Positions 718-27,286 of a DNA stretch of 35,833 nucleotides are shown here, in pieces. The DNA is taken from NCBI GenBank assembly GCA_046497505.1, contig JAWOFN010000059.1, positions 1-35,833 on the forward strand. Reading direction: 5' to 3'. The notes under the pieces are model-generated. The model saw nothing but the letters and a program-made list of their open reading frames with translations, had not been told where the DNA came from and searched no databases. Position numbers and translations under genes: made by a program. The first letter of the stretch is position 1. Every line of letters starts with the position of its first letter. This DNA comes from JAWOFN01 sp046497505 [NCBI: bacterium] (lineage in GTDB: Bacteria; Blakebacterota; Blakebacteria; Blakebacterales).

Positions 718-1389
718 ATGACCCGATCCATCCTGACGGTCCTCGTCCTGGTCCTCCTGACCGGTCCCCTGGCGGTGGAGACGCCGGCCCAGGAACCGGA
801 ATCCCGGGAGATCGGCCGGCTCATGAACGGGCTGCGCACGCGCTGGAACGAGATGGAAGGGCTCTATGCCCGATTCATCCACACCTTCGAGTGGGTGCTG
901 GCGGGGGAGACCCGTCAGACCCGGGGGGAACTCTGGCTCTCGGGCAGGGATCGGTTCCGCATCGAGACCGGTGAACGTACCCTGGTGAGCGACGGGGAGG
1001 TCCTCCATGACTACGATCCCGATCAGGAGCAGGTACTGCTCAACGATGTGGACCCCCGTCGGGGCATATTGACCCAGCAGCAGTTCTTCGCGGCCTACAC
1101 CGAGGACGTGGACGTGAGCTGGGTGGGGGAGGAGGGCCGGGGAGAGGAACAGCGGGTGGTGCTCGACCTCGACCGGGGAGCGGAGAGGGACCCCTCCCGG
1201 GTCCGCGTATGGGTGGATCCCTCCCGCTTGCTGGTGACGCGGGCCGAATTCGACGACGGGGCGGGGAACCATCATATCTACAGCATGACCGAACTCCGGA
1301 CCGGTCCGCAGCCCGCCGAGCGGTTCACGTTCGAGGTGCCCGAGGGGGTCACGGTGGTGGACATGCGCACCCCCGGGGGACGCCGTTGA
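718..1389 (+). CDS. lolA: LolA-like outer-membrane lipoprotein carrier protein
   Basis: A 223-residue periplasmic protein of the LolA fold, which ferries lipoproteins from the inner to the outer membrane. The ATG at 718 is preferred over the in-frame ATG at 688. It gives a clean signal peptide (MTRS plus a hydrophobic stretch to residue ~19, then TPA|Q with cleavage near 24/25), whereas 688 would add residues overlapping ftsK. The mature part shows LolA-like features: an amphipathic N-terminal helix with a YARFIHTFEW pattern, alternating strands (GELWLSGRDRFRIE, LVSDGEVLHDYDPDQ), and a late strand where residues are predicted from SRLLVTRAEFDD. Placement after ftsK is a common arrangement. 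The first mature residue would be glutamine, as in two other exported proteins here. Confidence 0.75.
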   Translation: MTRSILTVLVLVLLTGPLAVETPAQEPESREIGRLMNGLRTRWNEMEGLYARFIHTFEWVLAGETRQTRGELWLSGRDRFRIETGERTLVSDGEVLHDYDPDQEQVLLNDVDPRRGILTQQQFFAAYTEDVDVSWVGEEGRGEEQRVVLDLDRGAERDPSRVRVWVDPSRLLVTRAEFDDGAGNHHIYSMTELRTGPQPAERFTFEVPEGVTVVDMRTPGGRR

Positions 1390-2066
1390 GTGAGTGGATC
1401 CTGATCGCCGCGGCCGGCGCGCTGGCGGCAGCGGACACCACGGCCTTCTTCCAGGGGATGATCCACCAGCCCCTGGTCATCTCCACCCTGCTGGGCGCCG
1501 CCCTGGGTCTCCCGGCGGAGGGGGCCTATGCGGGGGCGCTGCTCCAGCTCCTCTGGATCTCCGAGCTCCCCATCGGCGCCGCCGTGTTCCCCGATGTCGG
1601 GAGTGTGAGCGCGGGTGCGGCGGGAGGGGTCCTCCTGGCCGCGGAGGCCGGGACGGGTCTGGGAGAAGCGGGGGCAGCGGCCCTGCTGCTCTCCATCCCC
1701 CTGGCCTCCGCGGCGGGGAGGCTGGTCTCGGCCCAGCGGGAGTTCCAGGGTCTCTTCCTCCCCCGCGTCTACCGGGCGGTCGAGCGGGGCCGTCCCGGTC
1801 TGCTGCGCTGGTACCTGGCGGTGGGGGTCGTACACTCCCTGCTGCGCGGTGCGCTGGTGGCTACGGGCACGGCCCTGCTGGTACGCATGGCGGCCTCCTG
1901 GGCGGGGGGGCAGCTCCCGGCCGGCGCCATCCCCCCCTATACCCTTTTGGCGGGCATGCTCGCCGCGGGCCTGGTGATGGTCTGGCGCCTGCTGGACGAG
2001 GGGGCGCTGCTCCCCTGGGTGCTGGCGGGAGCCGCGGTGGGTACGATGGGGGTGATGCTGCTGTGA
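1386..2066 (+). CDS. PTS mannose/sorbose-family IIC membrane component
   Basis: An integral membrane subunit of a mannose-family phosphotransferase permease, which with IID forms the sugar channel. At 226 residues it is somewhat short for the family (about 250-270). The likely start is TTG at 1386, overlapping the LolA-like stop as TTGA, with a purine-rich GGGGGA just upstream; no in-frame ATG fits the N-terminus. The sequence is almost entirely hydrophobic helices. It carries the family-like N-terminal segment with FFQGMIHQPLV and a glycine/alanine-rich region (EGAYAGALLQLLW, SELPIGAAVFPD, GSVSAGAAGG). The IID gene follows directly. No IIA or IIB gene is nearby, so sugar specificity cannot be inferred. 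Confidence 0.8.
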   Translation: MSEWILIAAAGALAAADTTAFFQGMIHQPLVISTLLGAALGLPAEGAYAGALLQLLWISELPIGAAVFPDVGSVSAGAAGGVLLAAEAGTGLGEAGAAALLLSIPLASAAGRLVSAQREFQGLFLPRVYRAVERGRPGLLRWYLAVGVVHSLLRGALVATGTALLVRMAASWAGGQLPAGAIPPYTLLAGMLAAGLVMVWRLLDEGALLPWVLAGAAVGTMGVMLL

Positions 2067-2086
2067 GGGGGGGCGCAGGGAAGGGG

Positions 2087-2839
2087 ATGCCGCAGGTCCG
2101 GGACTCCAGCCGTTTCGCGGCCTTCCTGACCTCCTTCATGGTCCAGGCCGGCTATCATTACGAGGGCTTCCAGAACATCGGCTTCGCGGCGATGCTGCTT
2201 CCGGCCCTCAAGGACCTCTATCCCGACGAGGAAGAACTCGTCGAAGGCGTCCGCCGGCACCTCGGCTTCTTCAACGCCCATCCCTATCTCACCTCGTACG
2301 CCGCGGGCGCCCTGATCCGGATGGAGGAAGAGCGGGCGCGGGGGGTGGAGGAGGCCCACTCCGACCAGGCCCTGGGGCGGTTCAAGCAGGTGATCGGGAG
2401 CATCCTCGGGAACCTGGGTGACCGCTTCTTCTGGGCGGGCCTGCTGCCCCTGACCGCCCTGGCCGGGCTGTGCGCCTTCCTGGTGGATCCCCTCTGGGGT
2501 GCGCTCGCCCTCCTCGTGCTCTACAATCTCCCCCACCTCATCACCCGGGCCGAGGGGCTGCGGATGGGATATCAGATGGGAGCGGCCTCCGCACCGGCGG
2601 CGGCCGGGGAGTTCGGGAGGAGACAGATCCGATGGGTGAGGCGTCTGGCAGCGGCGGCGGGAGGGGCCCTGATTCCCCTGGCTGCGGCTCATCCGCTCAC
2701 CCCGCCGGTCCCCACCGCCCTGGGGGTCATGGCAGGAGCGGCCCTGGCGATGGCACTCCTGCTCAGACTCCGCATGCGCCGGGTTTTGACTTTGCTCGCC
2801 ATCACGGGCCTGATTAGCCTGTACACGCTGCTGACCTGA
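2087..2839 (+). CDS. PTS mannose/sorbose-family IID membrane component
   Basis: The second membrane subunit of a mannose-family PTS permease. The ~250-residue product begins MPQVRDSSRFAAFLTSFMVQ and contains the conserved IID features GYHYEGFQNIGFA, LYPDEEELVEGVRRHLGFFNAHPY and a helix-rich GSILGNLGDRFFWAGLLPL segment. At least four hydrophobic helices follow, ending LLAITGLISLYTLLT. ATG 2087 is chosen because AGGGAAGG lies just upstream. GTG 2063, overlapping the IIC stop, is an alternative that adds eight residues. HPr starts 15 bases after the stop. The chain of IIC, IID, HPr and enzyme I argues strongly for a functional PTS transcription unit. Confidence 0.88.
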   Translation: MPQVRDSSRFAAFLTSFMVQAGYHYEGFQNIGFAAMLLPALKDLYPDEEELVEGVRRHLGFFNAHPYLTSYAAGALIRMEEERARGVEEAHSDQALGRFKQVIGSILGNLGDRFFWAGLLPLTALAGLCAFLVDPLWGALALLVLYNLPHLITRAEGLRMGYQMGAASAPAAAGEFGRRQIRWVRRLAAAAGGALIPLAAAHPLTPPVPTALGVMAGAALAMALLLRLRMRRVLTLLAITGLISLYTLLT

Positions 2840-2854
2840 GGTCTTCTGTCGGGG

Positions 2855-3118
2855 ATGAGACGTGAGCTGACCATAACGAGTCCCCTGGGCCTGCACGCCC
2901 GCCCTGCCGCACTCTTCGTCAAGACCGCCTCCCGTTTCGACTGCGATGTGCACGTCGAAAGAGAGGGGCTTCGGGTCAACGGGAAGAGTATCATGGGCGT
3001 GATGATGCTGGCTGCCGAGCAGGGGTCGGTGCTCCTGGTCGAGGCCGATGGTGAGGACGCCCAGGCATGTCTGGATGCCCTCGCCGAGCTGGTCGATTCC
3101 GGTTTCGAGACGGATTGA
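2855..3118 (+). CDS. ptsH: HPr phosphocarrier protein of the PTS
   Basis: HPr relays phosphate from enzyme I to the sugar-specific IIA domain. The 87-residue product has the normal length. The active-site histidine is His14 in GLHARPA, and the regulatory serine equivalent to Ser46 is Ser45 in NGKSIMGVMML. Keeping the serine and the following IMGVM docking patch is typical of HPr proteins controlled by HPr kinase/phosphorylase, so such a kinase may exist elsewhere in the genome; this is inference. It lies between IID and enzyme I, 15 bases after the former and 31 before the latter. Confidence 0.95.
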   Translation: MRRELTITSPLGLHARPAALFVKTASRFDCDVHVEREGLRVNGKSIMGVMMLAAEQGSVLLVEADGEDAQACLDALAELVDSGFETD

Positions 3119-3149
3119 CCCACGACCCGCCACACGAGAGAGATCCTGC

Positions 3150-7040: not shown

Positions 7041-7056
7041 GGGAAAGGGAGCGAGC

Positions 7057-7986
7057 ATGAGTCTGCTGGTGGTGGGGAGTGCGGCACTGGATACCCTGGA
7101 GACCCCCTTCGGGAAGGCGGAGGACGCCCTGGGCGGATCGGCGGTCTACTTCAGCGTGGCCTCCTCCGCCCTCACGGACGTGCGGCTGGTGGCCGTGGTG
7201 GGGGAGGACTTCCCCACCGAGCACATCGAGACCCTCGCGGGGCGTCCCATCGACCTCACCGGCCTGGAGCGAGCCGAGGGATGTACCTTCCGCTGGTCGG
7301 GACGTTACGGCTTCGACCTCAACCAGGCCATCACCCTGGATACCCAGCTCAACGTCTTCGAGAAGTTCGACCCCCAACTCCCGGAATCGTATGCAGATAG
7401 CGAGTTCGTGTTCCTCGCCAATATCCACCCCTCGCTCCAGTTGAAGGTCCTGGAGCAGGTGCCGGAGGCTGAGTTCACCGGCGCGGACACCATGAACTTC
7501 TGGATCGAGGGGAACCGGGCGGAGCTGGAGGAGGTCTTCCGGCGGGTGGACTGCGTGACCATCAACGAGGCGGAGGCCCGCCAGTTCGCCGACGAACCGA
7601 ACCTCTACCGGGCGATCCGGAGGATCGCGGAGCTGGGCCCCTCCTACGTGGTCATCAAGCGGGGGGAGTACGGTTCGCTGCTCTGGCACGAAGGGGAGGT
7701 CTTCTTCGCGCCCGCCTACCCGCTGGAAGAGGTCTTCGACCCCACCGGGGCGGGGGACAGCTTCGCGGGGGGGCTGTTCGGCTACCTGGCCGCGACGGGC
7801 AGGGTGGACTCCTTGGCGGTCCGGCAGGGTGTGGTGGTCGGGAGCGTGCTGGCCTCCTTCAACGTCCAGGATTTCAGCCTGAAGCGCCTGCTGACGGTGG
7901 ACAGGGTCCAGATCGCCGAGCGCATGGAGCGGTTCCGGTCCATGACCCACGTGGAGACGACCGGGATCCTCACCACCGGCGGGTAG
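7057..7986 (+). CDS. PfkB-family carbohydrate or nucleoside kinase
   Basis: A 309-residue ribokinase/PfkB-superfamily kinase that phosphorylates a sugar or nucleoside hydroxyl with ATP. Seen are the N-terminal GSAALDTLETPFG strand, the di-glycine-like substrate motif ALGGSAVYFSVAS, the central TINEAEARQF motif and the catalytic anion-hole signature DPTGAGDSFAGG, with Asp234 as the expected base. The ATG at 7057 follows a purine-rich GGGAAAGGGAG. It lies 16 bases after the nucleotidyltransferase and 39 before the methionine-cycle genes, so it could serve either group. Because AhcY downstream releases adenosine, adenosine kinase activity is an attractive but unproven reading; a general sugar kinase is the conservative call. 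Confidence 0.85.
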   Translation: MSLLVVGSAALDTLETPFGKAEDALGGSAVYFSVASSALTDVRLVAVVGEDFPTEHIETLAGRPIDLTGLERAEGCTFRWSGRYGFDLNQAITLDTQLNVFEKFDPQLPESYADSEFVFLANIHPSLQLKVLEQVPEAEFTGADTMNFWIEGNRAELEEVFRRVDCVTINEAEARQFADEPNLYRAIRRIAELGPSYVVIKRGEYGSLLWHEGEVFFAPAYPLEEVFDPTGAGDSFAGGLFGYLAATGRVDSLAVRQGVVVGSVLASFNVQDFSLKRLLTVDRVQIAERMERFRSMTHVETTGILTTGG

Positions 7987-9906: not shown

Positions 9907-12418
<2,512 letters not shown>

Positions 12419-12518: not shown

Positions 12519-14579
12519 ATGAGATCCCGCGTCACCGACCCGGGTACGATCCGTCCCTGGATCGCGCCCGTCATGTTCGCCGCCCTTCTGCTGGCCGGCG
12601 GCTGTTCCCTCGAAGAACCCAGCGCGCCGAGCTGGGAGATCGAGCTGAACATCCCCCTCAGCAACACCGCCTACGATCTTCCGGAGATCCTGCCGGAGGA
12701 CGAATTCACCGCGACGGGGCCCGACAGCATCTACACCCTGGAGGTGGACGGGTCCATCGACCCGGTGAGGGTCACCGACGAGATCACCGTCGAGGGCTTC
12801 GACCGCCGGGTGGGGGAGACGGTCGGGGACTTCACCGTTCCGGCCCCGGTGGACCGCTCCGCGGCCTTCACCCTCGCGGAACTCTTCCCGGCGGCCGCCG
12901 GGGGGTACACGGGGATCATCCCCGCCTTCACCTTCCCCACGGTGACACGGGACCTCACCCCGTTCGAACAGTACACCCAGGTCACCATCGACTCGGGGTA
13001 TGTGACCCTGGCGGTGACGAACAACACGCCGGTGCCGATCAGCACCCTCCAGATGCGCCTCCTGGAGTCGGGAAGCGAGACGGAGGTCCTCACAGCCGAC
13101 TTCTCCGGTGCGGTGCCTATCGCGGGGAACGGCGGTACGGGTGTCGTACGGGTTTCCCTGGCCGGGGTCAGCATGAGCAACGACCTCTCCATCGAGATGG
13201 AGGGTTCCTCCGACGGTTCGGGCGGGGACCCGGTGACCGTGACGGGGGAGGAGGAGGTCGTGGTGGAGGTGTCCGTCTCCGAGCTGAAGGCGGCCAGCGC
13301 CACGGGCGAGGTGGGCGCTTTCAGCGGGTCCCATACCGAGGAGATCGATCTGGACGCACAGTCCGAGATCCACGCCGCCACCTTCGCCGGGGGGTCCCTC
13401 CAGCTCGAGATGACCAATCAGCTCCCGGTGGACCTGGACGTCGCGGTGGCGTTCCCGACCCTCAGCAACACGGCAGGCTCTCCCTGCACCGTCCTGCTCC
13501 AGGCACGCTCCGGACAGACCGTCTCTCAGGGCCTGGACCTCTCGGGATGGACGCTCGAGACCGAGGCTCAGGGGAACGGTGTCCGGAGGGTACCGGTGTC
13601 GGTGGACTTCTCCTCTCCGGGGAGCGTGGGCGAGCAGGTCACCATGGCCGCCGCCGACTCGGTGGTGGTGCACGCCGTGCTGGACCAGCTGGCCATCTCC
13701 GAACTCAGGGGGGTGCTCAACGCGGAGACCGTCCCGATAGAACCTTCCGCGCAGCCCCTCTTCGAAGAAGAAGAAGGGAACCTGCTGGACGAGCTGCGCA
13801 AGGTGGGTCTGAGCCGGGTCGAGCTGGAGTTGGTGGTGGAGAGCGGGGTGGACTTCCCCGCCCAGGTGGACCTGGACCTCACCGGGAGGGGAGGGGTCCC
13901 GGACCCGGTGACGCTCGACATCTCCTTCCCCATCCGGCCGGGCGGGACACCGGGGATGCCGGTCACCAGCACCTATCTCATCGACGGCGACAGTCCGGAC
14001 CACCAGGCGCTGCTCGACTTCATCAACGCCTTCCCCGACTCGGTGGAATACAGCGGGGAGGTCACCGTGGGAGATGCCGCCTACGAGGGTGAGGTCCGGC
14101 AGGGAGCGGAGGTCTCGGGGCAGATGCGCTTCCGCACCCCCCTGGAGCTGACCGTGAACGAGACCCTCCGCTTCGAATCGGACATCCAGCATAACGAGGA
14201 GGGGCTGGAGGACGAGGTCGACCGGATCCAGGAGGCGACGATCACCTACGCGGTCTCGACCACCACGAACATGCCGATGCGCATCGCCTACCTGGCGGCC
14301 AGGGACTCCAACCGGGTCTTCAGCGACCCCGACCTCTCCCTGGAGCTCTCGGTGACCGGCATCCTGGGTACCGAGCAGGACACGGTGGTGACCCTCGGAC
14401 CCTCCGACTTCGACCTGCTGAAGGAACCGGTGTATACCGGGCTGCGGGTGCTCATACCTCCCAGCGGGGCCGCCCCCTACCGGATAAGCAGGAACGACCA
14501 GCTCTTCGTCCGGGCCTTCGGGACGGTTCGCCTGCTCATCGACCCGGATGAGGACCAGGGAGGAGGTGGCGGACGATGA
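12519..14579 (+). CDS. large predicted lipoprotein with repeated beta-sandwich-like segments, function unknown
   Basis: A 686-residue protein I do not recognise by name. The N-terminus has a basic region, a hydrophobic core (FAALLLAGG) and a lipobox ending at Cys29, so it is probably a lipoprotein facing the periplasm or cell surface. The mature chain is acidic, rich in Thr, Ser, Val and Gly, and reads as alternating beta-strands. Three segments share an N-x-x-P turn after a strand: VTNNTPVPI (Asn168), MTNQLPVDL (Asn300) and TTNMPMRI (Asn584), suggesting repeated LEA14- or Ig-like sandwiches. The start has GGAGGAAG upstream. The stop overlaps the next ATG as ATGA, so it is translationally coupled to the barrel-like outer-membrane protein, and the two may work together. 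Confidence 0.75.
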   Translation: MRSRVTDPGTIRPWIAPVMFAALLLAGGCSLEEPSAPSWEIELNIPLSNTAYDLPEILPEDEFTATGPDSIYTLEVDGSIDPVRVTDEITVEGFDRRVGETVGDFTVPAPVDRSAAFTLAELFPAAAGGYTGIIPAFTFPTVTRDLTPFEQYTQVTIDSGYVTLAVTNNTPVPISTLQMRLLESGSETEVLTADFSGAVPIAGNGGTGVVRVSLAGVSMSNDLSIEMEGSSDGSGGDPVTVTGEEEVVVEVSVSELKAASATGEVGAFSGSHTEEIDLDAQSEIHAATFAGGSLQLEMTNQLPVDLDVAVAFPTLSNTAGSPCTVLLQARSGQTVSQGLDLSGWTLETEAQGNGVRRVPVSVDFSSPGSVGEQVTMAAADSVVVHAVLDQLAISELRGVLNAETVPIEPSAQPLFEEEEGNLLDELRKVGLSRVELELVVESGVDFPAQVDLDLTGRGGVPDPVTLDISFPIRPGGTPGMPVTSTYLIDGDSPDHQALLDFINAFPDSVEYSGEVTVGDAAYEGEVRQGAEVSGQMRFRTPLELTVNETLRFESDIQHNEEGLEDEVDRIQEATITYAVSTTTNMPMRIAYLAARDSNRVFSDPDLSLELSVTGILGTEQDTVVTLGPSDFDLLKEPVYTGLRVLIPPSGAAPYRISRNDQLFVRAFGTVRLLIDPDEDQGGGGGR

Positions 14580-15952
14580 AGCGTTCCCGGCGTATCACAC
14601 TCGCTGCCGCGATCCTGGTCCTCCTCATCCCCGCTGCGGCCTCGGCCCAGGGGACCTACAGCGTCACCGGCTACTCGCTGATGGGGGGGCGGGGGACGCT
14701 GCTGACCGACATCGACGCCGCCCTGGTCAACCCCGCTCTGCTGGGGATGCCGGGACGCAGCAGCTTCAGCCTGCGTCTCTTCAGCGTCTCGGGCCATGTG
14801 GACCAGTCCTTCACCAGCCGGGGGCTCTGGAACAGGCTGCAGGGCAAGCTCCTCACCGACCAGGACAAGCAGGACATCCTGGACGGGATGGGGCCGGCCG
14901 CCAGCGTGAACGGTCTCTTCGAGGCGGCGGGTCCGGGCGTGCAGGTGGGACGGTTCGCCCTCGGGACCTACATGAGTGTCGACGCGGAGGCGCTCTTCCC
15001 GAAGGATTTCGTGGAGCTGGCCCTCTACGGCAACCAGTTCGATCGGGACTACCGGTTCGGGGACATCGGGTTGGTTTCCGACGTGGTGTCCATCCTCCAC
15101 GCCTCCTATGCCTTCCCCATGCCCTTCCTCCAGGATGCGGTGCGGGCCCTGCCCGTCCCGGTACGGGGCGTGTGGGGCGGGGTGACCCTGAAGTACTATC
15201 AGGGGCACGCTCACAGTGAGATCGAGGGGGGTGAGACCTTCCTCCGCTTCACCCCGGACGGGCTGGTCGGCAGTGCCGACTATCGCTTCCGGACCGCCGG
15301 CATCCCCGGCGGGCTGGTGGACGAGGAGAACGACGACCCGGCGATAGCCGCGGACACCACCTTCGCGGCCTCCTCGGGCAGGGGCATCGGTCTCGACCTG
15401 GGCCTGACCGCGGCTCTCACCCCCGATGTGACGGTCCACGCCGCGCTGGTGAACCTGAGCCCGGGCATCACCTGGGACAACTCCACCTACGAGGTACAGG
15501 TCACCGCCACCGCCGACACGATCTCCCTGGGGACCTTCCTGGAGCTGGATGAGGAGGCGGACAGCACCGACCTGGACAGCCTCACCTCCCACGAGGTGGA
15601 CGTGCGGAAGGTCGGTTCCTTCCGCTCGAGCGTCCCCCTCATCCTGCGTCTCGGAGGCACCTACCGTTACGGGCGCCTGGCCCTCAACGCCGAGTTCGAG
15701 CAGGCCCTCACGCGGGGGATGGGCTACAACCTGGTGCCCCGGCTGGGCCTCGGGGTGGAGTTCCGTCCCGTCGGACTGCTCCCCCTGCGGGCGGGCCTCA
15801 GCCTGGGAGGGAAGCTGGGGGTGGGTGCCGCCATCGGCATCGGTCTCGACCTGAAGGCGTTCGTGTGGGACGTGGCGGTGGGCAACACCGGTCTCACCCC
15901 CGGAGGGGTGAAGGGACTCGGTGCGGCCACCGGCCTCAAGATCAGCTTCTAG
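14576..15952 (+). CDS. predicted outer-membrane beta-barrel protein (DUF5723/PorV-FadL-like)
   Basis: A 458-residue exported protein. The signal peptide is clear (MKRSRR, hydrophobic core, ASA|Q with cleavage at 24/25) and the mature protein starts QGTYSVTGYSLMGGRG. The rest is rich in amphipathic strands with glycine and aromatic residues. It includes a LLTDQDKQDILDGMG segment reminiscent of the DUF5723 family of barrel proteins, and an N-terminal AALVNPALLGMPG motif like that of PorV/FadL-type proteins (asparagine-proline before the first strand). The chain ends ATGLKISF with a C-terminal phenylalanine, common in outer-membrane barrels. The exact family is uncertain. It overlaps the upstream lipoprotein gene, and a role in the same envelope module is inferred. 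It could be a type IX accessory barrel, but nothing specific proves this. Confidence 0.65.
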   Translation: MKRSRRITLAAAILVLLIPAAASAQGTYSVTGYSLMGGRGTLLTDIDAALVNPALLGMPGRSSFSLRLFSVSGHVDQSFTSRGLWNRLQGKLLTDQDKQDILDGMGPAASVNGLFEAAGPGVQVGRFALGTYMSVDAEALFPKDFVELALYGNQFDRDYRFGDIGLVSDVVSILHASYAFPMPFLQDAVRALPVPVRGVWGGVTLKYYQGHAHSEIEGGETFLRFTPDGLVGSADYRFRTAGIPGGLVDEENDDPAIAADTTFAASSGRGIGLDLGLTAALTPDVTVHAALVNLSPGITWDNSTYEVQVTATADTISLGTFLELDEEADSTDLDSLTSHEVDVRKVGSFRSSVPLILRLGGTYRYGRLALNAEFEQALTRGMGYNLVPRLGLGVEFRPVGLLPLRAGLSLGGKLGVGAAIGIGLDLKAFVWDVAVGNTGLTPGGVKGLGAATGLKISF

Positions 15953-17619: not shown

Positions 17620-18705
17620 TCAGAAACGGGCCCGCCTGAGGAAGAAGAGACTCAGCACGCCGAAGATGATGTTCCCGGCCCAGGCTCCCAGGGCGGGGGA
17701 GAGGTCGCCGTTGTATCCGAAGGCCTGCCCGGTACGGATCACCCCGTAGTAGACGAAGCAGATCAGGATGCTGACGGTGAACCCCACCGCCAGGCCGGTA
17801 CGCCTGCGTACGGCGGCCAGGCTGGCTCCGAAGAGCACGATGATGAAGTTGGCGAAGGGCAGGGCCATCTTCATGTGGAGGTCCACCATCGACCGGCGCA
17901 CGTCCCGTCCCCGCGCCCGTCCCCGTTCCACGTAGTCGAGGAGCTCGGAGAAGCCCATCTCCTCCGGTTCCTTCCGGCGCTTGGCCAGTTCCTCGGGGGT
18001 GAGGGCGGGGAGGGACTCGATGAGGCGGGCGTGGGTGGTGAAGGACTCCTCACCGTCCGACCAGGTCCGCTCCTCCACCTCCTCCAGGGCCCACCGGTCC
18101 AGGTCCGGCTGATAGCGCATCCGCTCGGCCTGGACCAGGCGTACCACCTCGACTCCCTCGGACCGTGCCAGGGTGATGTGCATGGCCAGGCGGTCCTGGT
18201 CGTTGTAGCGCTTCACGAAGAGCATCCGTCCCTCGCCCAGGTCGAGGGCCCGGTTGATGTTCTCGTTCCGGGAGACCGCTCCCCGCTTGTTGACATACTC
18301 GTTCAGGACCATCTGCTTCTTCTCGTTCGCCTTCGGCACCACCGTCTCCCCCACCACGAAGGCCAGCGCGGTGATCACCAGAGCCACCGCCGCCAGGGCA
18401 CGGATGGGCCGGTAGGGGCTGATCCCCGAGGCCTTCATGGCCAGCAGCTCGTTGTCCCGGGCCATCTGACCGATGGTGGAGAGGCTGGCCAGCAGCATGG
18501 CGACCGGGAGGGTGAGGACCACGATGAAGGGGGCGTAGTAGAGGTAGTAGAGGACCGGGGCCGCCCAGGGGGCGTCCTGGTCGATGAAGTCCTCCAGGTT
18601 CTCCACCAGGTCCACGATGACGAAGATGGCCAGGAAGGCGATGACGGCTCCCAGCAGCACCAGGAGGAACTGGCGGACGGCCTTCCGGTCCAGGGTCTTC
18701 ATCAT
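17620..18705 (-). CDS. lptG: LPS export system permease LptG-like (YjgP/YjgQ family)
   Basis: One of the two inner-membrane permeases that, with LptB, extract lipopolysaccharide and pass it to LptC. The 361-residue protein starts MMKTLDRKAVRQFLLVLLGA; its ATG overlaps the upstream stop (ATGA), so the frame upstream of it is non-coding. The layout is typical: TM1 with DLVENLEDFIDQD following, TM2-TM3 with TLPVAMLLASLSTIGQMARDNELLAMKASGIS, a beta-jellyroll-like periplasmic domain, and C-terminal helices (FANFIIVLFGASLAAVRRRTG, FVYYGVIRTGQAFGYNG). The two YjgP/YjgQ proteins are hard to tell apart; order and shorter length favour LptG here. Confidence 0.85.
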   Translation of the reverse strand: MMKTLDRKAVRQFLLVLLGAVIAFLAIFVIVDLVENLEDFIDQDAPWAAPVLYYLYYAPFIVVLTLPVAMLLASLSTIGQMARDNELLAMKASGISPYRPIRALAAVALVITALAFVVGETVVPKANEKKQMVLNEYVNKRGAVSRNENINRALDLGEGRMLFVKRYNDQDRLAMHITLARSEGVEVVRLVQAERMRYQPDLDRWALEEVEERTWSDGEESFTTHARLIESLPALTPEELAKRRKEPEEMGFSELLDYVERGRARGRDVRRSMVDLHMKMALPFANFIIVLFGASLAAVRRRTGLAVGFTVSILICFVYYGVIRTGQAFGYNGDLSPALGAWAGNIIFGVLSLFFLRRARF

Positions 18706-20087
18706 GGTCCGGCCTCCCCCTCGGAGAGGCGTTCGGCGAGGCGCCTGCCCAGCCGGCCCGGGAGCCTGCGGGCCAGGCTCTCCCACCGGATGAAGGTCTG
18801 TTCGTACACCCCGCGCACGATGAGGGTGATGCCGGCCCCGGTGACCAGGAGGTTGGGGAGCCACATGGCCAGCCAGGGGTCCATGAGGTCGCGGTCGGCC
18901 AGGTCCTCACCCAGGATCAGGCAGCTCCAGTAGAGGAGGAAGAAGGCCAGGGCCACGCCGAAGCCGATGATGGCACCCCCCCGGCGGGCCATGATGCCCA
19001 GGGGGATCCCGATCAGGACGAAGGCGATGCAGGCGAAGGGGATGGCGTACTTCTTGTGGATCTCCACCCGGTAGCGGCTGGCCTGCCGGCTGTAGAAGGA
19101 GCGGTTCCGGGCCGCGCTCTCCAGGTCGGCCTGCAGACTCTTGTGGGCCGCGATGATGCGGCTCTCCTTCACCAGGCCCTCGCGGGACTCGGTCAGATCC
19201 ACGGGTTCACCCCGAACCACCCGGGCGATATAGGGCTCGGGGAGGTCCCGCAGCTGCTCCATGTGGAGGGAGGCCATGGAGTCGCGCTCGGCCACCCGTA
19301 CCTCCATGGCGGCGATCGAGAGCTCACGGTCCCCCCGCACCCCGGACCGGCTGCGCTCCAGCCGGGTGTTCTCCATGGCCAGGGAGGTCTTGAACTTCTG
19401 GAACTCCTGGAGCCGGGTCTGTCCGCTCTCCACCTCGGTGATGGTGCCGTCCCGCAGGTCGAGGAGGATGCTCTCCCCCTCCTCGTCGAACTGCATCACG
19501 CCCCACGCGGCCCGGATGACGCGCGGCGGGTCGGGCGGGTCGAAGTTCAGGTACTGGACGACCGTGACACCCTCCACGCGGCCGGTCATCGGGTCCGCCG
19601 AATCCACACGGAGGGTGTAACCGGGCACATCCTCCATGAAGACACCGGACCGGATGGCCAGGCCGGGCCGCTTGGCCCGGATATCCTGCTGGAGTGTCTT
19701 GGCCAGGTAGTTGGACTCGGGGAGGATCCTGTCGTTGAAATAGACCAGCCCCGCCGCGATGGCCATCCCGGCGAAGAAGACGGGCAGCCCGAGGCGGATC
19801 ACCCCCACACCGCTGGCCTTCAGTGCGGTGATCTCCCCGTCATGGGACATCCTCCCGAAGGCCATGAGGACCGAGACCAGCACGGCCATGGGCACGGTGA
19901 GGGCCAGCATCCAGGCGATGTTGAGCAGGAAGAGCTCCACCACCACCGTGACCTCGAGACCCTTGCCGATGACCATGTCGAGGATGTCGATGAGGTACTG
20001 CATCAGGAACAGGAAGGTGAGGACCGCCAGGGAGAGGAAGAACGGCCCCACGTGCTCCTTCAGGATATATCGGGATAGTATCCTCAC
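18702..20087 (-). CDS. lptF: LPS export system permease LptF-like (YjgP/YjgQ family)
   Basis: The partner permease of the LptB2FG exporter. GTG 20087 is chosen since the product then begins VRILSRYILKEHVGPFFLSL, the standard family N-terminus; a GGAGG lies three bases upstream. The 461-residue protein is longer than LptG because of an extended periplasmic section (~residues 130-340) that includes a charged, helix-prone stretch around MEVRVAERDSMASLHMEQLR. Conserved membrane motifs include TVPMAVLVSVLMAFGRMSHDGEITALKASG and the C-terminal IPFACIAFVLIGIPLGIMARRGG. It is the first gene of the minus-strand pair, divergent from sprA across 179 bases. Confidence 0.87.
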   Translation of the reverse strand: MRILSRYILKEHVGPFFLSLAVLTFLFLMQYLIDILDMVIGKGLEVTVVVELFLLNIAWMLALTVPMAVLVSVLMAFGRMSHDGEITALKASGVGVIRLGLPVFFAGMAIAAGLVYFNDRILPESNYLAKTLQQDIRAKRPGLAIRSGVFMEDVPGYTLRVDSADPMTGRVEGVTVVQYLNFDPPDPPRVIRAAWGVMQFDEEGESILLDLRDGTITEVESGQTRLQEFQKFKTSLAMENTRLERSRSGVRGDRELSIAAMEVRVAERDSMASLHMEQLRDLPEPYIARVVRGEPVDLTESREGLVKESRIIAAHKSLQADLESAARNRSFYSRQASRYRVEIHKKYAIPFACIAFVLIGIPLGIMARRGGAIIGFGVALAFFLLYWSCLILGEDLADRDLMDPWLAMWLPNLLVTGAGITLIVRGVYEQTFIRWESLARRLPGRLGRRLAERLSEGEAGP

Positions 20088-20096
20088 GGTCCTCCG

Positions 20097-20126
20097 AATA
20101 TAAGGGTCTGCCGCGGGCCCGGTCCA
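20097..20126 (-). promoter_or_regulatory. possible promoter for lptF-lptG
   Basis: On the minus strand TGGACC (20126-20121) and TATATT (20102-20097) are separated by 18 bases, resembling -35 and -10 boxes. The predicted transcription start would be only a few bases from the GTG at 20087, giving an almost leaderless message without the GGAGG site. Either the promoter or the ribosome site may therefore be a coincidence. Confidence 0.3.
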
Positions 20127-20141
20127 TGAGGGGCTTTGAGC

Positions 20142-20171
20142 TTGTTCGGGGCCCGGGCACGGCCCTACACT
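20142..20171 (+). promoter_or_regulatory. possible promoter for sprA
   Basis: TTGTTC (20142-20147) and TACACT (20166-20171) lie 18 bases apart in the lptF-sprA divergent spacer, giving a modest sigma-70-like match and a leader of about 90 bases. It is one of few AT-richer spots in this spacer. Support is weak. Confidence 0.3.
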
Positions 20172-20266
20172 GCACGACTGCCCCATATGGAGCGACCTCG
20201 TACCGATCCAGGAGGATTACCCAGGAACCTTGTGACCGCCGAGACGTGATGTAACGACCCGGGCAC

Positions 20267-23200
20267 ATGCTGCCCCGGTCCGCAAGGAGCTGCCGGGTGG
20301 TCCCTTCCCCGACCCGCATGACAGCCGCGGTGCTGGCCGCACTGCTCGCCCTGCCAGGGGCGGCCTCCGCCCAGGAACAGGGCGGGAGTGCCCCCGGAGA
20401 GGTCCGGGTCGGGGTATCGATGTATCTGCTCGACGGGGTTTATGACAACCTGACCCGGCCTTTTGTTCCCGGCCGGGACCTTCCCTCTCTCACCGGGATG
20501 ACGCAGAGCGGGCTCTTCCCGGAGACCGGTCTGCCCGGGATGAGCCAGCAGGTACGGGTGCTGGACGGACACCGCACACTGCTCTTCCAGAACATCTACA
20601 AGGGGCACGAGGCACAGCGACCGGCGCTCCTCACCGTGGACGATTTCCTGGAACGGACCCGGGGCGAACAGGCCCGCCGGAAGCTGGTGGACGGCTTCCT
20701 GGAGAAGAGACGCCGCAGCGAGAGAGAACCGGGCAGCGGCAGCCTGCTGGAGTTCGAGATCCCCATCACCGTACCGAAGGGGCTCTCCAGCGTGGTGGGC
20801 GAGGGGGGCGCGGGTCTGCGCATCTCCGGGAACCGGAACATCCGTTTCGCGGGGCGGAGCGAGTGGACCGAAGGGGCGGTATCCACCGCAACCGCCTACC
20901 AGACCAAGTTCCCCAGCCTGAACATGGAGCAGCAGTCCCGGTTCGCCATCACCGGGAACGTGGGGGACAAGATCGAGGTCCAGGTGGAACAGGACTCCAA
21001 CGCACTCACCGACCTGGAGAACAACATCGTGGTCTCCTACCGGGGCTACGAGGACGAGATCCTGCAGGAGGTGGTGGCCGGCAACACCGACTTCAGCCTC
21101 CCGGGCAGCCAGTTCCTCGGCTTCAACCAGGGGGCCCGGGGGCTCTTCGGGGTGAAGGGGAGGGCCCGGATCGGCGACCTCCAGGTCACCGCACTGGCCA
21201 GCCAGGAGAAGGGGTCGGGAGAGAAGGCCACCTTCCGGGCGGGTGCGCGCGAGAGTACGATCCGGCGCCCGGACATCGAGCCCCTGGTAGGCACCTACTA
21301 CTTCCTCGACCCCATCTACCGGGAGAACTGGGCGGACGACCCGGGCCGTGCCGCAGCTTCAGAGGACTCGATCACGGCCATCAGCGTCTTCATCGACGAC
21401 CAGGACTACACCAACGACGTGGAGGACGCGGCCCGGGCCAACTCCTTCGCCTTCGTGGACCCGGACAACCCCCAGTCGGTGGACAGCCGGGAGGCCCACC
21501 TGGGTGCCTTCCATGAGCTGGAATCGGACCAGTATTACATCAACCGGTCCATCGGAATCCTGGCCCTGAACCGGAGCCTGGGGTCGAAGGACGTGCTGGG
21601 TGTGATCTACGAGACCGCGTCGGGGGCCCGGTTCGGGGCCTTCCCGACCGGGGAGGACGCGGAGGAGGGGCTGACCCTCAAGATGATCCGGCCGGAGAAC
21701 CCACGGCCCGAAGACCTCACGTGGGACCTGGAACTGCGGAACGTCTACTACCTGGGGTCGAAGAACATCCCCGCCGAGGGCTTCAAGCTGAAGATCCGGT
21801 TCGATCCCCCCTCGGGGGAGGACGAGTATACCCAGGACGGCACGGACTATCTCCAGATCCTGGGGCTGGATGAGTGGGGGGAGACACCGGACGCACCCCC
21901 GGACGGGAACATCGACCTGAACGAGAACTTCCTGAATCTGGCCCGGGGGGAGCTGATCTTCCCCGACCTCGAGCCCTTCATGAACGAGGAACTTGAGACC
22001 AAGGTCGAGATGTACGACATCATCGACCGGCAGCAGCTGACCCAGCGGTCCCGGTACTACCTGGAGATCCAGCTGGCCACCAGGGCCGCCAGCTACACCC
22101 TGCCGGTCACCAACATCCTGGAGAACAGCGAGGTGGTGACCCTGAACGGCCGCCGCCTCCGGAAGGGCACCGACTACCAGATCAACTATCTCACCGGTGA
22201 ACTCCGCTTCCTCACCGACGAGATCCAGGACCCGTCGGCCGACGTGCAGGTGGACTACGAGTACAGTCCCCTCATCCAGCTGGAGCAGAAGAGCCTGATG
22301 GGCCTGCGGGCCGAGTACAACCTGGGCCGGGCGGGCACCATCTCGGGGATGGTGGTGAGCCGGAGCGAGCAGACCCTCGACCAGCGGATCCGCCTGGGCC
22401 GGGAGCCGAACAGGAACATCGTCTACGACGCCACGGCGGTCCTGGGATGGGAACCGGAGTGGCTCACACGTGCCATGGATGCCCTGCCCGGGGTGCGGAC
22501 CGATGCACGGTCCACCCTGCAGGTGGAGGCGGAGTTCGCTCAGAACGACCCCGACCCCAACACGGGGGGCGAGGCCCTGGTGGACGACTTCGAGGGCTCG
22601 AAGAACGCCACCGACTTCGGGATCGGAAGGGGACGCTGGAATCTCTCCTCGCCCCCGTCGGGGAAGAACCTCGACGAGCGCGCCCGCCTGGTCTGGTTCA
22701 ACCCCTACGAGCGGATCGACAGCCGGAAGATCTGGCCGGAGAAAGAGACCGACATCCGGTCCAGCCAGGTTAACGTGCTCACCCTCGCCTTCCTGCCGGG
22801 CCAGCCCGCCTCTTATCCGGCGGGGCGCTACCTCTGGGGCCAGGTCCCTCTCGAGGACCGGTGGGCGGGGATCCAGCAGGCTGTCTCCGCGGGGGCTGCG
22901 GACCTCTCGAAACTCACCTTCCTGGAGGTGTGGGTGAACGGCAGGGAGGGCCGGCTGCATATCGACCTGGGTACGGTGAGCGAGGACATGAACGAGAACC
23001 AGGTGCTCGATTCCGAGGACCAGCTGCGGAACGGCGTCCGCAACGGGGTCCTGGATGCCGGCGAGGACATAGGGATCGACGGCCGGACCGACGAGGAGGA
23101 ACTGGACTACTACCTGGTCCGGGCGGGTGAGAACCCGGACGGGCTCAGCACCGACCAGAAGAAGGACCGGTTCACCGAACTGTACGTGGATGCCTATCCG

Positions 23201-26200
23201 GACTGGTACGGCAGCCGGAGCGCCGACGACCCGGCGAACGACAACTTCCGCTACGGGAACCGCGACGTCTATGACCACATCAACGGTACCCAGGGCAACC
23301 AGACCGACCCGGACCGGCTGGGACGGCCGGACACCGAGGACCTCAACGGCAACGGCTACCTCGACCGGTCCAGCGACTATTTCACCTACACCGTCGACCT
23401 GAGTCCGGACTCCCCCGACACGGCGCTGGTGGCCGGAGGGGACGACGACCCCGCCAACTGGGACCAGGAGTACGAGTCGTGGCGGCTCTACCGCATCCCC
23501 ATCTCGAGTCCCTCGGGCCAGACCGGCTCTCCGGACCTCTCGCTGGTGGAGAGTATCCGCCTGTGGGTGGACGGGGCCCAGGATTCGACCCGTCAGGCGA
23601 GGATCTCGATCGCGGGGCTGGACGTGGTGGGCAACCTCTGGCGGAAGTCCCCGCTTGTGGACCAGCAGGGGGTGGAACTCCCGGAGGAGACCCTCCAGGT
23701 GAGCGTGCGGAACACCTTCGACAACCCGGAGTACGAACCGCCCCCCGGCGTGGTGCCGATCCGGGACCGGGTGACCAACCTGGCCGCCCAGGAGCAGTCC
23801 CTGGCCCTGACCTTCACCGATCTGCCGCCGGGTGTGGAGGGAGAGGTGTTCAGCACCCGGACCCGGGCGGAGGACTTCACGATGTACCAGGGCCTGGCCC
23901 TTTTCCTCCACGGTCCGGACGGCGGGGAGGGCGAACCGGCCTGGTGGACCACCAGCGACACCAGCTATGTGGAGGCGTTCCTGCGTTTCGGGGCGGATGC
24001 GGACAACTATTACGAGTACCGCACGCGCATCTACCCCGGCTGGGATGAACGCAATCACTCGGACGTGGATTTCCAGGCCGTCACCGAGCTGAAGCAGGCG
24101 GCCCTGGAGGAGATCGCGGGTACCTCCGGGGTCGTCGACACCACCGCCGGGAACTACCGGGTCAAGGGGCGGCCGAGCCTCACCAACATCAAGCGGCTCG
24201 CCATCGGCGTGGTGAACCTCCACCCCACCCTGGAGGTGACCGGCGAGGTCTGGGCCGACGAGCTCCGGGTGACCCGGGTGCGGAGGGACTCCGGGTCGGC
24301 GGCCCGGGTGGCCATCCACAGCGACCTGGCGGACGTGGCCAGTGTGGACTTCCGCCTGAACCGGCAGACGGCGGACTTCCACGGTCTGAGGGAGAAGCGG
24401 GGCAGCCAGAGCACGAACACCAACTCCACGCTCGCGGTGAAGTCGAACCTCGACAAGTTCACCCCCGCCTCCTGGGGTCTCGTCATCCCCCTGAGCATCA
24501 ACTGGCGCAGCAGCCTTACCCTGCCCAAGCGGCTGCCCGGCTCCGACCTGGTGCTGGACACCGAGGAGGAGCGGCATCGGAACCGTACGGCCATGGACGA
24601 CCAGAGCATCTCCATCTCGCTGCGCAAGCAGACCGAGAGCGAGAACCCCCTCATGGCATGGACCCTCGACCGGATGGACCTCTCCTGGACCGGAAGCCGC
24701 CGGGAGGGTGTGAGCACGGTGAACCCGGTGAACAGGTCGTTCCAGATCCAGGGACGGTTCGGGTACGACCTCACCCCGCGGAGCGAGGCGGAGTGGCACC
24801 CTTTCCGGGCCATCCCCCTCCTCCCGGAATCCCTGAAAGAGACGACGTTCAACCCCATCCCCACCGACCTGCGCTACTCCCTCAACGCGACCCAGCTGGG
24901 TGAGCACGTGGCGGACCGTTCGGGGCAGGAGCGCGACCGGTACGCTTTCACGGCCACGGAGAACTACAACCTGGGCATGCGGATGTTCGATCCGATGCGC
25001 ACCGCCTACAGCCTGACCCTGAACCGGGACCTCACCGACGACTGGTCCCTGGGGGACGGGGACCTGGGTGCCGAGGTGGGGCGGAGGCAGGTCCTGGATT
25101 CGGTCTACGAGCCGGACCTCTTCCGCTGGATGACCCAGCGCTACCAGTACACCAGCGAGTTCCGGGAGAACAACGACCCCCGGTACAACACCCGTGTGGC
25201 CCGGCAGCAGGACGGGACCACCCGGGAGGTACAGCTGGGGCGGGACGTGGTGCTGAACGTGGACGCGTCGGCCGACTATACCATCCAGCCCGCCGAGCTG
25301 GTCGGGAGGCCGGAACCGGATGAAGGGGTGGAAGGACTCCAGAGGCCCATCAACGACCTCAAGAAGCTGGTCCAGACCATGTCGCCGGTCATCCTCACCC
25401 TTACCCGGGAGAAGACGGCCAACGAGTTCAACCTCTCCGGCCGGCCCGACCTCTCCTATCAGCTGGGGTTCAGCGACCGGCCCGGGGTGACGAGGACCTC
25501 CGCATCGGCGACCCAGCAGTCGCAGGCCCGGGACACGAGACGCATCGAGGTGCGGTCGGGGCTCAACCTCCCGATCCAGGCCTTCGTGGATCTCGGTCCC
25601 CAGTGGCGGTGGGTGGACCAGGCCAGCGAATCACGTACGATCTACAGCCAGGCCGTCACATGGCCGGCGGTGAACGTGCGCTACACCGGACTCCAGCAGA
25701 TCCGTCCCTTCGCCGACCTCACGCGTTCCCTCTCACTCTCCAGCGGGTTCCGGAAGACGGACGAGAACACCGATCGGCTCAGCGACGAGGGGGGGACGCG
25801 TCTTCCCTACAGCGGCAGGGTGTCCCGCGGCCTGGAGCCGCTCATCAGCATCCAGATGACCCTGAACAACGGCATGGCCGTTATGCTGAACAGCAGCAAC
25901 GTCACCACCGTGAACACCCAGTACGACCCGGCCGGCCATCCCAGCTCCCAGTCGGTCACCGGCAACAGCGGCCTGCGCGTCAGCCTCAACTACCAGTTCA
26001 CCGCCCCCCAGGGGATCGACATACCCCTGATCGGGCAGGTGCGCTTCCAGAGCCAGCTCGACATGGGCATCACGCTGGCCCGGAACCGGAACGAGACGAG
26101 GGTGCGGATCTACAAGCCCCGACAGATCAACGTCGGCGAGGGGCTCATCCAGCGGACCGTCTACGAACCGGATGAGTTCGTGCCCACGGTGAGCCAGGCG

Positions 26201-26353
26201 ACGTGGAGCTTCCAGCCGAACATACGCTATAATTTCAGCCGTCGGGTCCAGGGAGGTCTGGATGCCACTTTCGAGAACGTGGACGACCGGCTCATGAACC
26301 GGACCCGGAAGGTCCGAGAGGTGGCCATCTTCGTGAACCTGTTATTCAACTGA
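20267..26353 (+). CDS. sprA: SprA/Sov-like type IX secretion outer-membrane translocon
   Basis: SprA (Sov) is the giant outer-membrane barrel through which type IX cargo leaves the periplasm. This 2,028-residue homologue has a signal peptide ending ASA|QEQ. ATG 20267 is used; ATG 20318 would give a tighter signal peptide. Family features in order: an N-terminal region with LPSLTGMTQSGLF, the EIPITVPKGL and GLRISGNRNIRFAGRS segments, the highly typical QQSRFAITGNVGDKIEVQ then VEQDSNALTDLENNI, FNQGARGLFGVKGRARIGDL, VDDFEGS (772-778), two calcium-type loops (907-915, 1025-1033), and long strand-rich C-terminal barrel regions ending FVNLLFN. It is shorter than Flavobacterium or Porphyromonas homologues (about 2,400-2,500). 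The glutaminyl-cyclase-like gene follows 15 bases later. Confidence 0.9.
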   Translation: MLPRSARSCRVVPSPTRMTAAVLAALLALPGAASAQEQGGSAPGEVRVGVSMYLLDGVYDNLTRPFVPGRDLPSLTGMTQSGLFPETGLPGMSQQVRVLDGHRTLLFQNIYKGHEAQRPALLTVDDFLERTRGEQARRKLVDGFLEKRRRSEREPGSGSLLEFEIPITVPKGLSSVVGEGGAGLRISGNRNIRFAGRSEWTEGAVSTATAYQTKFPSLNMEQQSRFAITGNVGDKIEVQVEQDSNALTDLENNIVVSYRGYEDEILQEVVAGNTDFSLPGSQFLGFNQGARGLFGVKGRARIGDLQVTALASQEKGSGEKATFRAGARESTIRRPDIEPLVGTYYFLDPIYRENWADDPGRAAASEDSITAISVFIDDQDYTNDVEDAARANSFAFVDPDNPQSVDSREAHLGAFHELESDQYYINRSIGILALNRSLGSKDVLGVIYETASGARFGAFPTGEDAEEGLTLKMIRPENPRPEDLTWDLELRNVYYLGSKNIPAEGFKLKIRFDPPSGEDEYTQDGTDYLQILGLDEWGETPDAPPDGNIDLNENFLNLARGELIFPDLEPFMNEELETKVEMYDIIDRQQLTQRSRYYLEIQLATRAASYTLPVTNILENSEVVTLNGRRLRKGTDYQINYLTGELRFLTDEIQDPSADVQVDYEYSPLIQLEQKSLMGLRAEYNLGRAGTISGMVVSRSEQTLDQRIRLGREPNRNIVYDATAVLGWEPEWLTRAMDALPGVRTDARSTLQVEAEFAQNDPDPNTGGEALVDDFEGSKNATDFGIGRGRWNLSSPPSGKNLDERARLVWFNPYERIDSRKIWPEKETDIRSSQVNVLTLAFLPGQPASYPAGRYLWGQVPLEDRWAGIQQAVSAGAADLSKLTFLEVWVNGREGRLHIDLGTVSEDMNENQVLDSEDQLRNGVRNGVLDAGEDIGIDGRTDEEELDYYLVRAGENPDGLSTDQKKDRFTELYVDAYPDWYGSRSADDPANDNFRYGNRDVYDHINGTQGNQTDPDRLGRPDTEDLNGNGYLDRSSDYFTYTVDLSPDSPDTALVAGGDDDPANWDQEYESWRLYRIPISSPSGQTGSPDLSLVESIRLWVDGAQDSTRQARISIAGLDVVGNLWRKSPLVDQQGVELPEETLQVSVRNTFDNPEYEPPPGVVPIRDRVTNLAAQEQSLALTFTDLPPGVEGEVFSTRTRAEDFTMYQGLALFLHGPDGGEGEPAWWTTSDTSYVEAFLRFGADADNYYEYRTRIYPGWDERNHSDVDFQAVTELKQAALEEIAGTSGVVDTTAGNYRVKGRPSLTNIKRLAIGVVNLHPTLEVTGEVWADELRVTRVRRDSGSAARVAIHSDLADVASVDFRLNRQTADFHGLREKRGSQSTNTNSTLAVKSNLDKFTPASWGLVIPLSINWRSSLTLPKRLPGSDLVLDTEEERHRNRTAMDDQSISISLRKQTESENPLMAWTLDRMDLSWTGSRREGVSTVNPVNRSFQIQGRFGYDLTPRSEAEWHPFRAIPLLPESLKETTFNPIPTDLRYSLNATQLGEHVADRSGQERDRYAFTATENYNLGMRMFDPMRTAYSLTLNRDLTDDWSLGDGDLGAEVGRRQVLDSVYEPDLFRWMTQRYQYTSEFRENNDPRYNTRVARQQDGTTREVQLGRDVVLNVDASADYTIQPAELVGRPEPDEGVEGLQRPINDLKKLVQTMSPVILTLTREKTANEFNLSGRPDLSYQLGFSDRPGVTRTSASATQQSQARDTRRIEVRSGLNLPIQAFVDLGPQWRWVDQASESRTIYSQAVTWPAVNVRYTGLQQIRPFADLTRSLSLSSGFRKTDENTDRLSDEGGTRLPYSGRVSRGLEPLISIQMTLNNGMAVMLNSSNVTTVNTQYDPAGHPSSQSVTGNSGLRVSLNYQFTAPQGIDIPLIGQVRFQSQLDMGITLARNRNETRVRIYKPRQINVGEGLIQRTVYEPDEFVPTVSQATWSFQPNIRYNFSRRVQGGLDATFENVDDRLMNRTRKVREVAIFVNLLFN

Positions 26354-26368
26354 GCCAGGAGCCCAGCC

Positions 26369-27286
26369 GTGCGCCGGACCATCCCTCTCACCCTCTTCCT
26401 CCTCCTCGCCGCCTGCGGCACACGTCAGGCCTCCTCCCCGCGTGTCTCCTTCGATGCCGAGGCCGCCCTGGAGCTGGTGAGGATCCAGACCGATTTCGGC
26501 CCCCGGGTGCCGGGGACGGAGGCGCACCGCCGGCAGCTCGAGTGGTTGGAGTCGTTCCTGGAACCCCTGGCGGCGGTGGTGCAGCGGCAGCCCTTCACCG
26601 CCCACAACCCCTTCTGGGAGGAGGATGCAGAGGCTTGCAACGTCCTGGCTTCCTTCTACCCCGACAAGACCCGTCGGATCCTGCTCTGCGCCCACTGGGA
26701 TTCCCGGCCGGTGGCGGACCAGGAGGACCCGCCGGTCCAGGAACCCATCGACGGCGCGGTGGACGGTGCGGCGGGTACCGCCGTGCTGCTCCAGATGGCC
26801 CGGATCCTGTCGGCACACGAACCCGCCTACGGTGTGGACCTGCTCTTCTTCGACGCGGAGGACCTGGGGGTGAGCGGGGACTACGAGTACACGTACTTCT
26901 TCCAGGGGAGCCGGCATTTCGCCCGGGTGGCCCGGGAAACGGGCTACCAGCCGTGGTTCGGGATCCTGGTGGACCTCATCGGGGACGAGCCGGCGGACTA
27001 CTACAAGGAGTACTACTCGGTGCGCTACGCCCCGGACGTCGTGGAACGGGTCTGGAGCATCGCCGAGCGTCTCGGCCTGGAACAGTTCGAGCACCGGGAG
27101 GGACCGGCGCTGGTCGACGATCACTGGATCCTCAACCGGGAGGCCCGGATCCCCACGATCAACATCACCGAGGCCGCGGAGGACTACCCCTACTGGCATA
27201 CCCGGCATGACACCTACGACAAGGTCCATGCCGAGAGCATCGGGGCGGTGGGCCAGGTCCTGGCCGCCGTGCTCTATCCCGAATGA
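26369..27286 (+). CDS. M28-family glutaminyl-peptide cyclotransferase-like lipoprotein
   Basis: A 305-residue zinc enzyme of the M28 fold that resembles type II glutaminyl cyclases, which convert N-terminal glutamine to pyroglutamate. The start GTG 26369 follows AGGAG by eight bases. A canonical lipobox LAAC ends at Cys16, so it should be anchored in the envelope. Features: QTDFGPRVPGTEAHRRQ, ILLCAHWDSRP, DGAAGTAVLLQMA (zinc-ligand aspartate), FFDAEDLG (acidic pair), VDDHWILN (like the DDH-x-PF loop of cyclases) and WHTRHDT (zinc-ligand histidine). A plain M28 aminopeptidase is the main alternative; the single-zinc-type motifs and the DDH loop favour a cyclase. Adjacency to sprA suggests processing of exported proteins. 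Confidence 0.85.
   Translation: MRRTIPLTLFLLLAACGTRQASSPRVSFDAEAALELVRIQTDFGPRVPGTEAHRRQLEWLESFLEPLAAVVQRQPFTAHNPFWEEDAEACNVLASFYPDKTRRILLCAHWDSRPVADQEDPPVQEPIDGAVDGAAGTAVLLQMARILSAHEPAYGVDLLFFDAEDLGVSGDYEYTYFFQGSRHFARVARETGYQPWFGILVDLIGDEPADYYKEYYSVRYAPDVVERVWSIAERLGLEQFEHREGPALVDDHWILNREARIPTINITEAAEDYPYWHTRHDTYDKVHAESIGAVGQVLAAVLYPE

Follow-up and report, generated by a model that had tools for sequence, protein, structure and literature searches.

The window analyzed here, a 35,833-nucleotide stretch of DNA with a GC content of 67%, very probably carries the Q-rule pathway in a lineage outside Bacteroidota, with the cyclase gene in a gene cluster common with Gemmatimonadota. The Q-rule has been published as a feature of Bacteroidetes (Bochtler et al. 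2018, PMC5837995; Szczesniak et al. 2023, PMC10653852), and its origin and purpose are unsettled. By analogy with Bacteroidota, proteins would be exported by Sec, and cleavage by signal peptidase I would leave Gln as residue 1 of the exported protein. A membrane-anchored, periplasmic type II glutaminyl cyclase (QC) would then close this N-terminal Gln into pyroglutamate, which may block aminopeptidases and stabilize the protein. We infer the cyclization, the membrane location, and the stabilization from work on Bacteroidota; in Porphyromonas gingivalis, QC is described as essential via its activity, with pyroglutamate proposed as a stabilizer of extracytoplasmic proteins (PMC10653852). The cyclase gene itself would belong to an old envelope cluster, in which LptF/LptG-type permease genes diverge from sprA, followed by the QC gene and the gene of a ComEA-like protein (Table 1).

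Table 1. Features of the window that bear on N-terminal Gln capping
Feature	Position	Strand	Basis
LolA-like periplasmic carrier	688..1389	+	PF03548 E 2.8e-8, translation
DUF5723 outer-membrane barrel protein	14576..15952	+	PF18990 E 2.7e-24; barrel is the reading of the first-pass annotation
LptF/LptG-type LPS export permease	17620..18705	-	PF03739 E 7.6e-82
Second LptF/LptG-type permease, divergent from sprA	18702..20186	-	PF03739 E 4.8e-84
SprA, outer-membrane translocon, type IX family	20267..26353	+	TIGR04189 E 1.6e-205
Type II glutaminyl cyclase (QC), predicted lipoprotein	26369..27286	+	PF04389 E 9e-32, PDB 6qro E 6e-61
ComEA-like helix-hairpin-helix protein	27329..27796	+	PF12836 E 8.5e-13, signal-peptide scorer

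The first-pass annotation held that every predicted signal peptidase I substrate of the window has Gln at +1. Translation confirms the three cleavage sites that it named, which read AVETPA↓QEPES in the LolA-like carrier (read from an internal ATG at 718), PAAASA↓QGTYS in the DUF5723 protein, and PGAASA↓QEQGG in SprA. A scorer that leaves the +1 residue unused returned seven candidates in the window when its threshold was set low, at 6, of which five scored at least 8.5. One candidate, the minus-strand gene at 17620-18705, was rejected as a substrate because it encodes an LptF/LptG membrane protein. A fourth, doubtful candidate is the ComEA-like protein (VAA↓DLRP, score 9.2), which has Asp at +1 and may be a membrane anchor rather than a substrate. 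With the LptF/LptG protein set aside, Gln therefore occupies +1 in three of four plausible candidates, so that "every" holds for the three named proteins but not for the fourth. The chance of at least three in four is approximately 0.001 to 0.006, given backgrounds of 7% (the E. coli estimate) to 12% (other phyla). This count is small and post hoc and is therefore suggestive; weight was placed instead on the sampling of relatives.

The lipoprotein gene located 15 bases downstream of sprA (sprA stop at 26353, GTG start at 26369) had been described as cyclase-like, a reading that is borne out by PDB matches, active-site residues, and the tree. Its product carries the lipobox LLAAC, with the N-terminus VRRTIPLTLFLLLAAC↓GTRQ. 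Bacteroidal QCs head the list of PDB matches by E-value, namely 6qro (6e-61; a glutamine cyclotransferase, T. forsythia QC), 3gux (2.3e-58), and 4fuu (5.8e-55). Aligned residues place the active site at D132, E164, D165, D202, and H277, with zinc-ligand and catalytic roles taken from the literature and the correspondence of residues made by motif. Among 33 aligned QCs (the window, 25 from Gemmatimonadota, three from Bacteroidota, and four others), D132, E164, D202, and H277 are kept in every row, and D165 is kept in 30, being replaced by Glu in genomes G009, G012, and G175. Window D165 lies at the position of human Glu202 as an Asp zinc ligand. Asp at this position is reported for most Bacteroidetes QC orthologues (PMC5837995), and Asp at the third zinc position is termed bacteroidal-QC-specific (PMC7948796). 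In common with the P. gingivalis and T. forsythia enzymes (PgQC and TfQC) as described in PMC7948796, the window protein has the M28 fold family, Asp in place of human Glu202 among three zinc ligands, and lipoprotein character; its identity by tblastn to the three Bacteroidota QCs is 34-37%. Family, zinc ligands, catalytic residues, lipobox, and tree together identify it as a predicted type II QC. By our own lipobox rule, 22 of the 25 Gemmatimonadota QCs also carry a lipobox. The Trp that precedes the zinc-binding His (W276 in the window) is kept in the window QC and the three Bacteroidota QCs, whereas 16 of the 25 Gemmatimonadota QCs differ from PgQC/TfQC in carrying His there; activity could therefore differ in those 16.

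The M28 protein could alternatively be an aminopeptidase, with the Gln residues at +1 in the window arising by chance or from a general signal-peptidase preference in GC-rich bacteria. The M28 family includes many aminopeptidases, the window offers only three or four proteins, and the only NCBIfam models that match the protein are desuccinylase and aminopeptidase models, both far under cutoff. However, the bacteroidal QCs, with E-values of 6e-61 and down, leave the aminopeptidase 6hc6 (1.2e-6) far behind, and the bacteroidal-QC-specific Asp is present. The protein therefore groups with cyclases rather than with aminopeptidases in PDB matches, alignment, and tree. The part of this alternative that concerns signal peptides is addressed by the relatives.

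For the relatives, 1.6 Mb of sequence (80 stretches of 20 kb from 33 Gemmatimonadota genomes) was processed with codon-model gene calls. Only proteins with an N-terminal hydrophobic core were retained, to the exclusion of lipoproteins and of probable membrane proteins. An initial, ad hoc scorer of signal peptides gave Gln in 15/45, 13/67, 8/34, 3/5, 6/16, and 0/4 sites in six Gemmatimonadota classes and in 4/72 sites in other phyla. It was dropped because its values were lower and noisy and its sites appeared by eye to be off by a few residues; these misplaced sites led to the adoption of a latent-site model. This model, our own and distinct from SignalP, estimates the cleavage site and the +1 residues jointly with fixed -3/-1 preferences; its first form, in which the -3 and -1 columns drifted, was replaced. 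The tests assume that proteins, and likewise genomes, are independent of one another.

Across all Gemmatimonadota, Gln is found at +1 in 113 of 196 called sites (EM estimate 0.52). When the 25 residues after the core were shuffled 30 times, the estimate averaged 0.09 and reached a maximum of 0.14; per-class shuffled nulls, from an earlier model run, reached up to 0.23. The same method gives 15/27 in Bacteroidota and 3/38 in 300 kb of E. coli (Fisher p 5.5e-9 vs Gemmatimonadota), where an initial sample of 100 kb had given 3/14 before this enlargement. The frequency in relatives is thus well above background. For other phyla, the count was 0/56 earlier and 8/52 with a changed set, and the less favorable 8/52 is used. 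From this "other phyla, no QC" set we excluded seven loci of QC- or PF05096-positive genomes as well as four from Gemmatimonadota; the set is still not clean, as it contains short stretches of the plant-type QC genomes G012 and G175 and loci from genomes outside the QC search (61 genomes searched, 76 non-Gemmatimonadota loci).

The bias persists, at lower values, when the site is chosen blind to the +1 residue. Among 105 confident Gemmatimonadota sites, 38 have Gln at +1, and each of positions +2 to +8 has only 3 to 8, so the peak is confined to +1; E. coli gives 3/27. Posterior-weighted blind values are 0.22 in Gemmatimonadota, 0.39 in Bacteroidota, 0.08 in 300 kb of E. coli, and 0.04 in other phyla, but the initial 100 kb sample of E. 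coli alone gave 0.22, no lower than Gemmatimonadota. A model-free count of residues after [AVST]xA in the c-region yields Gln in 48/254 cases for genomes with an animal-type (window-type) QC vs 8/110 for other phyla (p 0.004); the count for 100 kb of E. coli is 4/17. In the mature parts of the same animal-type-QC candidates, Gln follows this motif in only 96 of 2204 cases, which argues against chance or a general preference. Taken with the cyclase matches and the zinc-site Asp, these data make an aminopeptidase accompanied by fortuitous Gln residues highly unlikely.

QCs are widespread in the phylum. In an even draw of 150 genomes from the phylum of G010, a genome with a locus titled Gemmatimonadaceae, by which Gemmatimonadota is defined throughout this work, the animal-type QC was found in 106 and a plant-type QC (PF05096) in 47 (50 matches, of which three weak ones were dropped). 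Both types occur in 14 genomes, neither in 11, and at least one in 139, and the two types avoid each other (Fisher p 4e-13, with kinship ignored). The suggestion of the first-pass annotation that the pathway extends beyond Bacteroidota is upheld by this distribution and by a Gln frequency comparable to that of the Bacteroidota sample. Among 61 genomes of other phyla, the QC search was positive in four (39, 34, 30, and 27% identity) and the PF05096 search in five. A draw of 395 genomes contained QCs in 260 (E up to 1e-30), with at most 49% identity to the window QC. Of the comparisons that bear on the affiliation of the window, a separate scan with the QC gave no match and one with PfkB gave matches in many phyla, while the window MetK reached at best 66% identity (a record titled Nitrospirota) and no more than 64% to Gemmatimonadota.

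The presence of a QC and the Gln bias are imperfectly matched. Gln is at +1 in 74/125 sites of genomes with the animal-type QC, in 28/59 sites of Gemmatimonadota with only the plant type, and in 14/30 sites of Gemmatimonadota in which neither was found. The QCs missing from these Gemmatimonadota may be gaps of draft genomes. Genome G052, negative for both QC types, shows Gln at +1 in six of seven sites; for it and the other QC-negative Gemmatimonadota with the bias, an incomplete genome or a third cyclase is possible. Conversely, G007 (an Armatimonadetes record) has a QC-like gene (C104:3565-4419, L259) of 39% identity that contains the ED motif, and none of 12 called sites in its 62 kb has Gln at +1. 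None of eight called sites does in G009.

In the QC tree, the 25 Gemmatimonadota QCs form one group (support 87/90) with deep branches. The window QC lies outside this group and joins three Bacteroidota QCs with moderate support (82/83); the branches of G009, G012, and G175 are very long. The position of the window QC would suit a history in which the window lineage and Gemmatimonadota obtained the pathway by gene transfer from Bacteroidota and not by common descent. However, the single, deeply branching Gemmatimonadota group argues against such transfer, as does a wider gene order common to Gemmatimonadota and the window that differs from the one annotated Bacteroidota QC stretch, in which QC is flanked by sufE and a gene for an LD-carboxypeptidase. 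We consider gene transfer unlikely.

The neighborhood of QC and sprA, whose frequency the first-pass annotation had proposed to survey, is conserved. QC and SprA occur together in 75 Gemmatimonadota genomes, and for 73 of them a SprA position is listed. In 51 of the 73, QC follows sprA on the same strand, no more than 4 kb from the matched part of sprA; the two genes are on different contigs in 19 and apart on the same contig in three. In 22 Gemmatimonadota loci selected for this adjacency, LptF/LptG-type permeases diverge from sprA in all 22, as a pair in 21 (the L305 stretch ends first). The corresponding pair beside the window sprA is absent from the first-pass annotation. Downstream of QC, the selected loci contain a ComEA-like gene in 19/22 and pilT in 20/22, the pilus families being named for one locus. 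In the window, the place of the Gemmatimonadota pilB, pilT, and pilC is occupied by two genes behind the ComEA-like gene (27983-28477 and 28474-29466) that match neither Pfam nor NCBIfam families. In the draw of 395 genomes, sprA-like sequence also lies upstream of QC in the three loci nearest the window, weakly in two.

Such linkage could mean that the cyclase exists solely for the SprA (type IX) route, capping its cargo or SprA itself, and that this is the reason for the operon. The adjacency seen in the window and shared by 51 of 73 genomes would fit, as would Gln at +1 of the window SprA and of SprA at 7 of 15 Gemmatimonadota loci (8/16 with the window) when SprA signal peptides were called blind to +1, although several of these calls are visibly mis-started and none was made in 7/23. 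A functional tie between the type IX pore and capping, as suggested by the first-pass annotation, nevertheless finds no support in the relatives. SprA is matched in 106 of the 150 Gemmatimonadota genomes, and 31 of the 106 QC-bearing genomes are without a SprA match. In QC-bearing genomes, Gln is at +1 in 49/79 sites without a SprA match vs 25/46 with one, with the proviso that drafts may miss SprA. Plant-type-QC-only genomes also keep the bias, and in those compared QC lies far from sprA (3.0 vs 4.6 Mb in G037, 3.1 vs 4.7 Mb in G057). The window substrates include a periplasmic LolA. We regard a cyclase dedicated to SprA as quite unlikely. Since genomes that have no SprA match show an equally strong bias, the most likely role of capping is a general one for exported proteins, and the linkage of sprA and QC is most likely a legacy of an old envelope cluster and not a sign of a step in type IX export. 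A neighborhood alone cannot show function.

The search for other type IX components may also speak against a dedicated cyclase. The window SprA, at 685.7 bits, is well over the TIGR04189 cutoff of 200 and is thereby like the SprA/Sov translocon of type IX systems. Among 40 SprA-bearing Gemmatimonadota, on the other hand, no PorU sortase scored over cutoff, and a type IX C-terminal sorting domain was found in 13; GldM was found in none of the 40, but its positive control gave no signal either. In two genomes, a gene cluster lies approximately 10-20 kb upstream of sprA (L300:1488-9955 in G030 and L301:1234-9290 in G062). It encodes a 1308-1324 aa protein whose end resembles a type IX sorting domain weakly, a 374-383 aa protein that in G030 belongs to the PorV/PorQ family (NF033709 E 6.1e-29), a further protein that in G030 has a GWxTD domain, and a lipoprotein. 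This cluster is possibly a divergent type IX module. The highest SprA scores among the 150 genomes (681 to 1251 bits) belong to plant-type-QC genomes (G037, G057, G073, G086, G092, G097, G128, and G160), and a separate SprA lineage possibly accompanies the plant-type QC.

If the Q-rule does hold across Gemmatimonadota and the window lineage, it would lie deeper in the tree. We are evenly divided on a broader reading, in which capping of N-terminal Gln would be ancient in the broader FCB group and not an innovation of Bacteroidota. The type II cyclase would ancestrally have belonged to the LptF/LptG-SprA cluster, left it in Bacteroidota, and been exchanged repeatedly for the plant type, with Gln at +1 kept throughout. 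Members of Gemmatimonadota are mostly free-living, and an origin of the Q-rule in protection from host peptidases would thus be weakened. Two unrelated cyclases that largely substitute for one another under one habit of Gln at +1 would provide a natural test of the purpose of the cap.

The literature contains parts of this picture. The text of PMC5837995 states that the Q-rule is not common to the entire FCB group, and gives high Q-values for Ignavibacterium album (77%), Chloroherpeton thalassium (55%), and a few cyanobacteria. Because such single-species values outside Bacteroidetes are already published, our data extend the range of the Q-rule and not its kind. Gemmatimonadetes are listed in PMC11285876, with citation of the Q-rule paper, among phyla that possibly have type IX systems. 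Abby et al. 2016 (PMC4793230) describe these systems as found solely in Bacteroidetes. The main texts of PMC5837995 and PMC10653852 have no mention of "Gemmatimonad", and a search of an open-access collection returned no paper in which glutaminyl cyclase is joined either with Gemmatimonadota or with SprA and type IX secretion. The system proposed here is like the Bacteroidetes Q-rule in that most substrates of signal peptidase I (in Gemmatimonadota) carry Gln at +1 and in that its QC is an animal-type lipoprotein. As reported for Bacteroidetes (PMC5837995), animal-type and plant-type QCs also occur as alternative lineages inside one phylum. It is unlike the Bacteroidetes Q-rule in that it is found outside Bacteroidota and in that its QC gene is linked to sprA and lptF/lptG.
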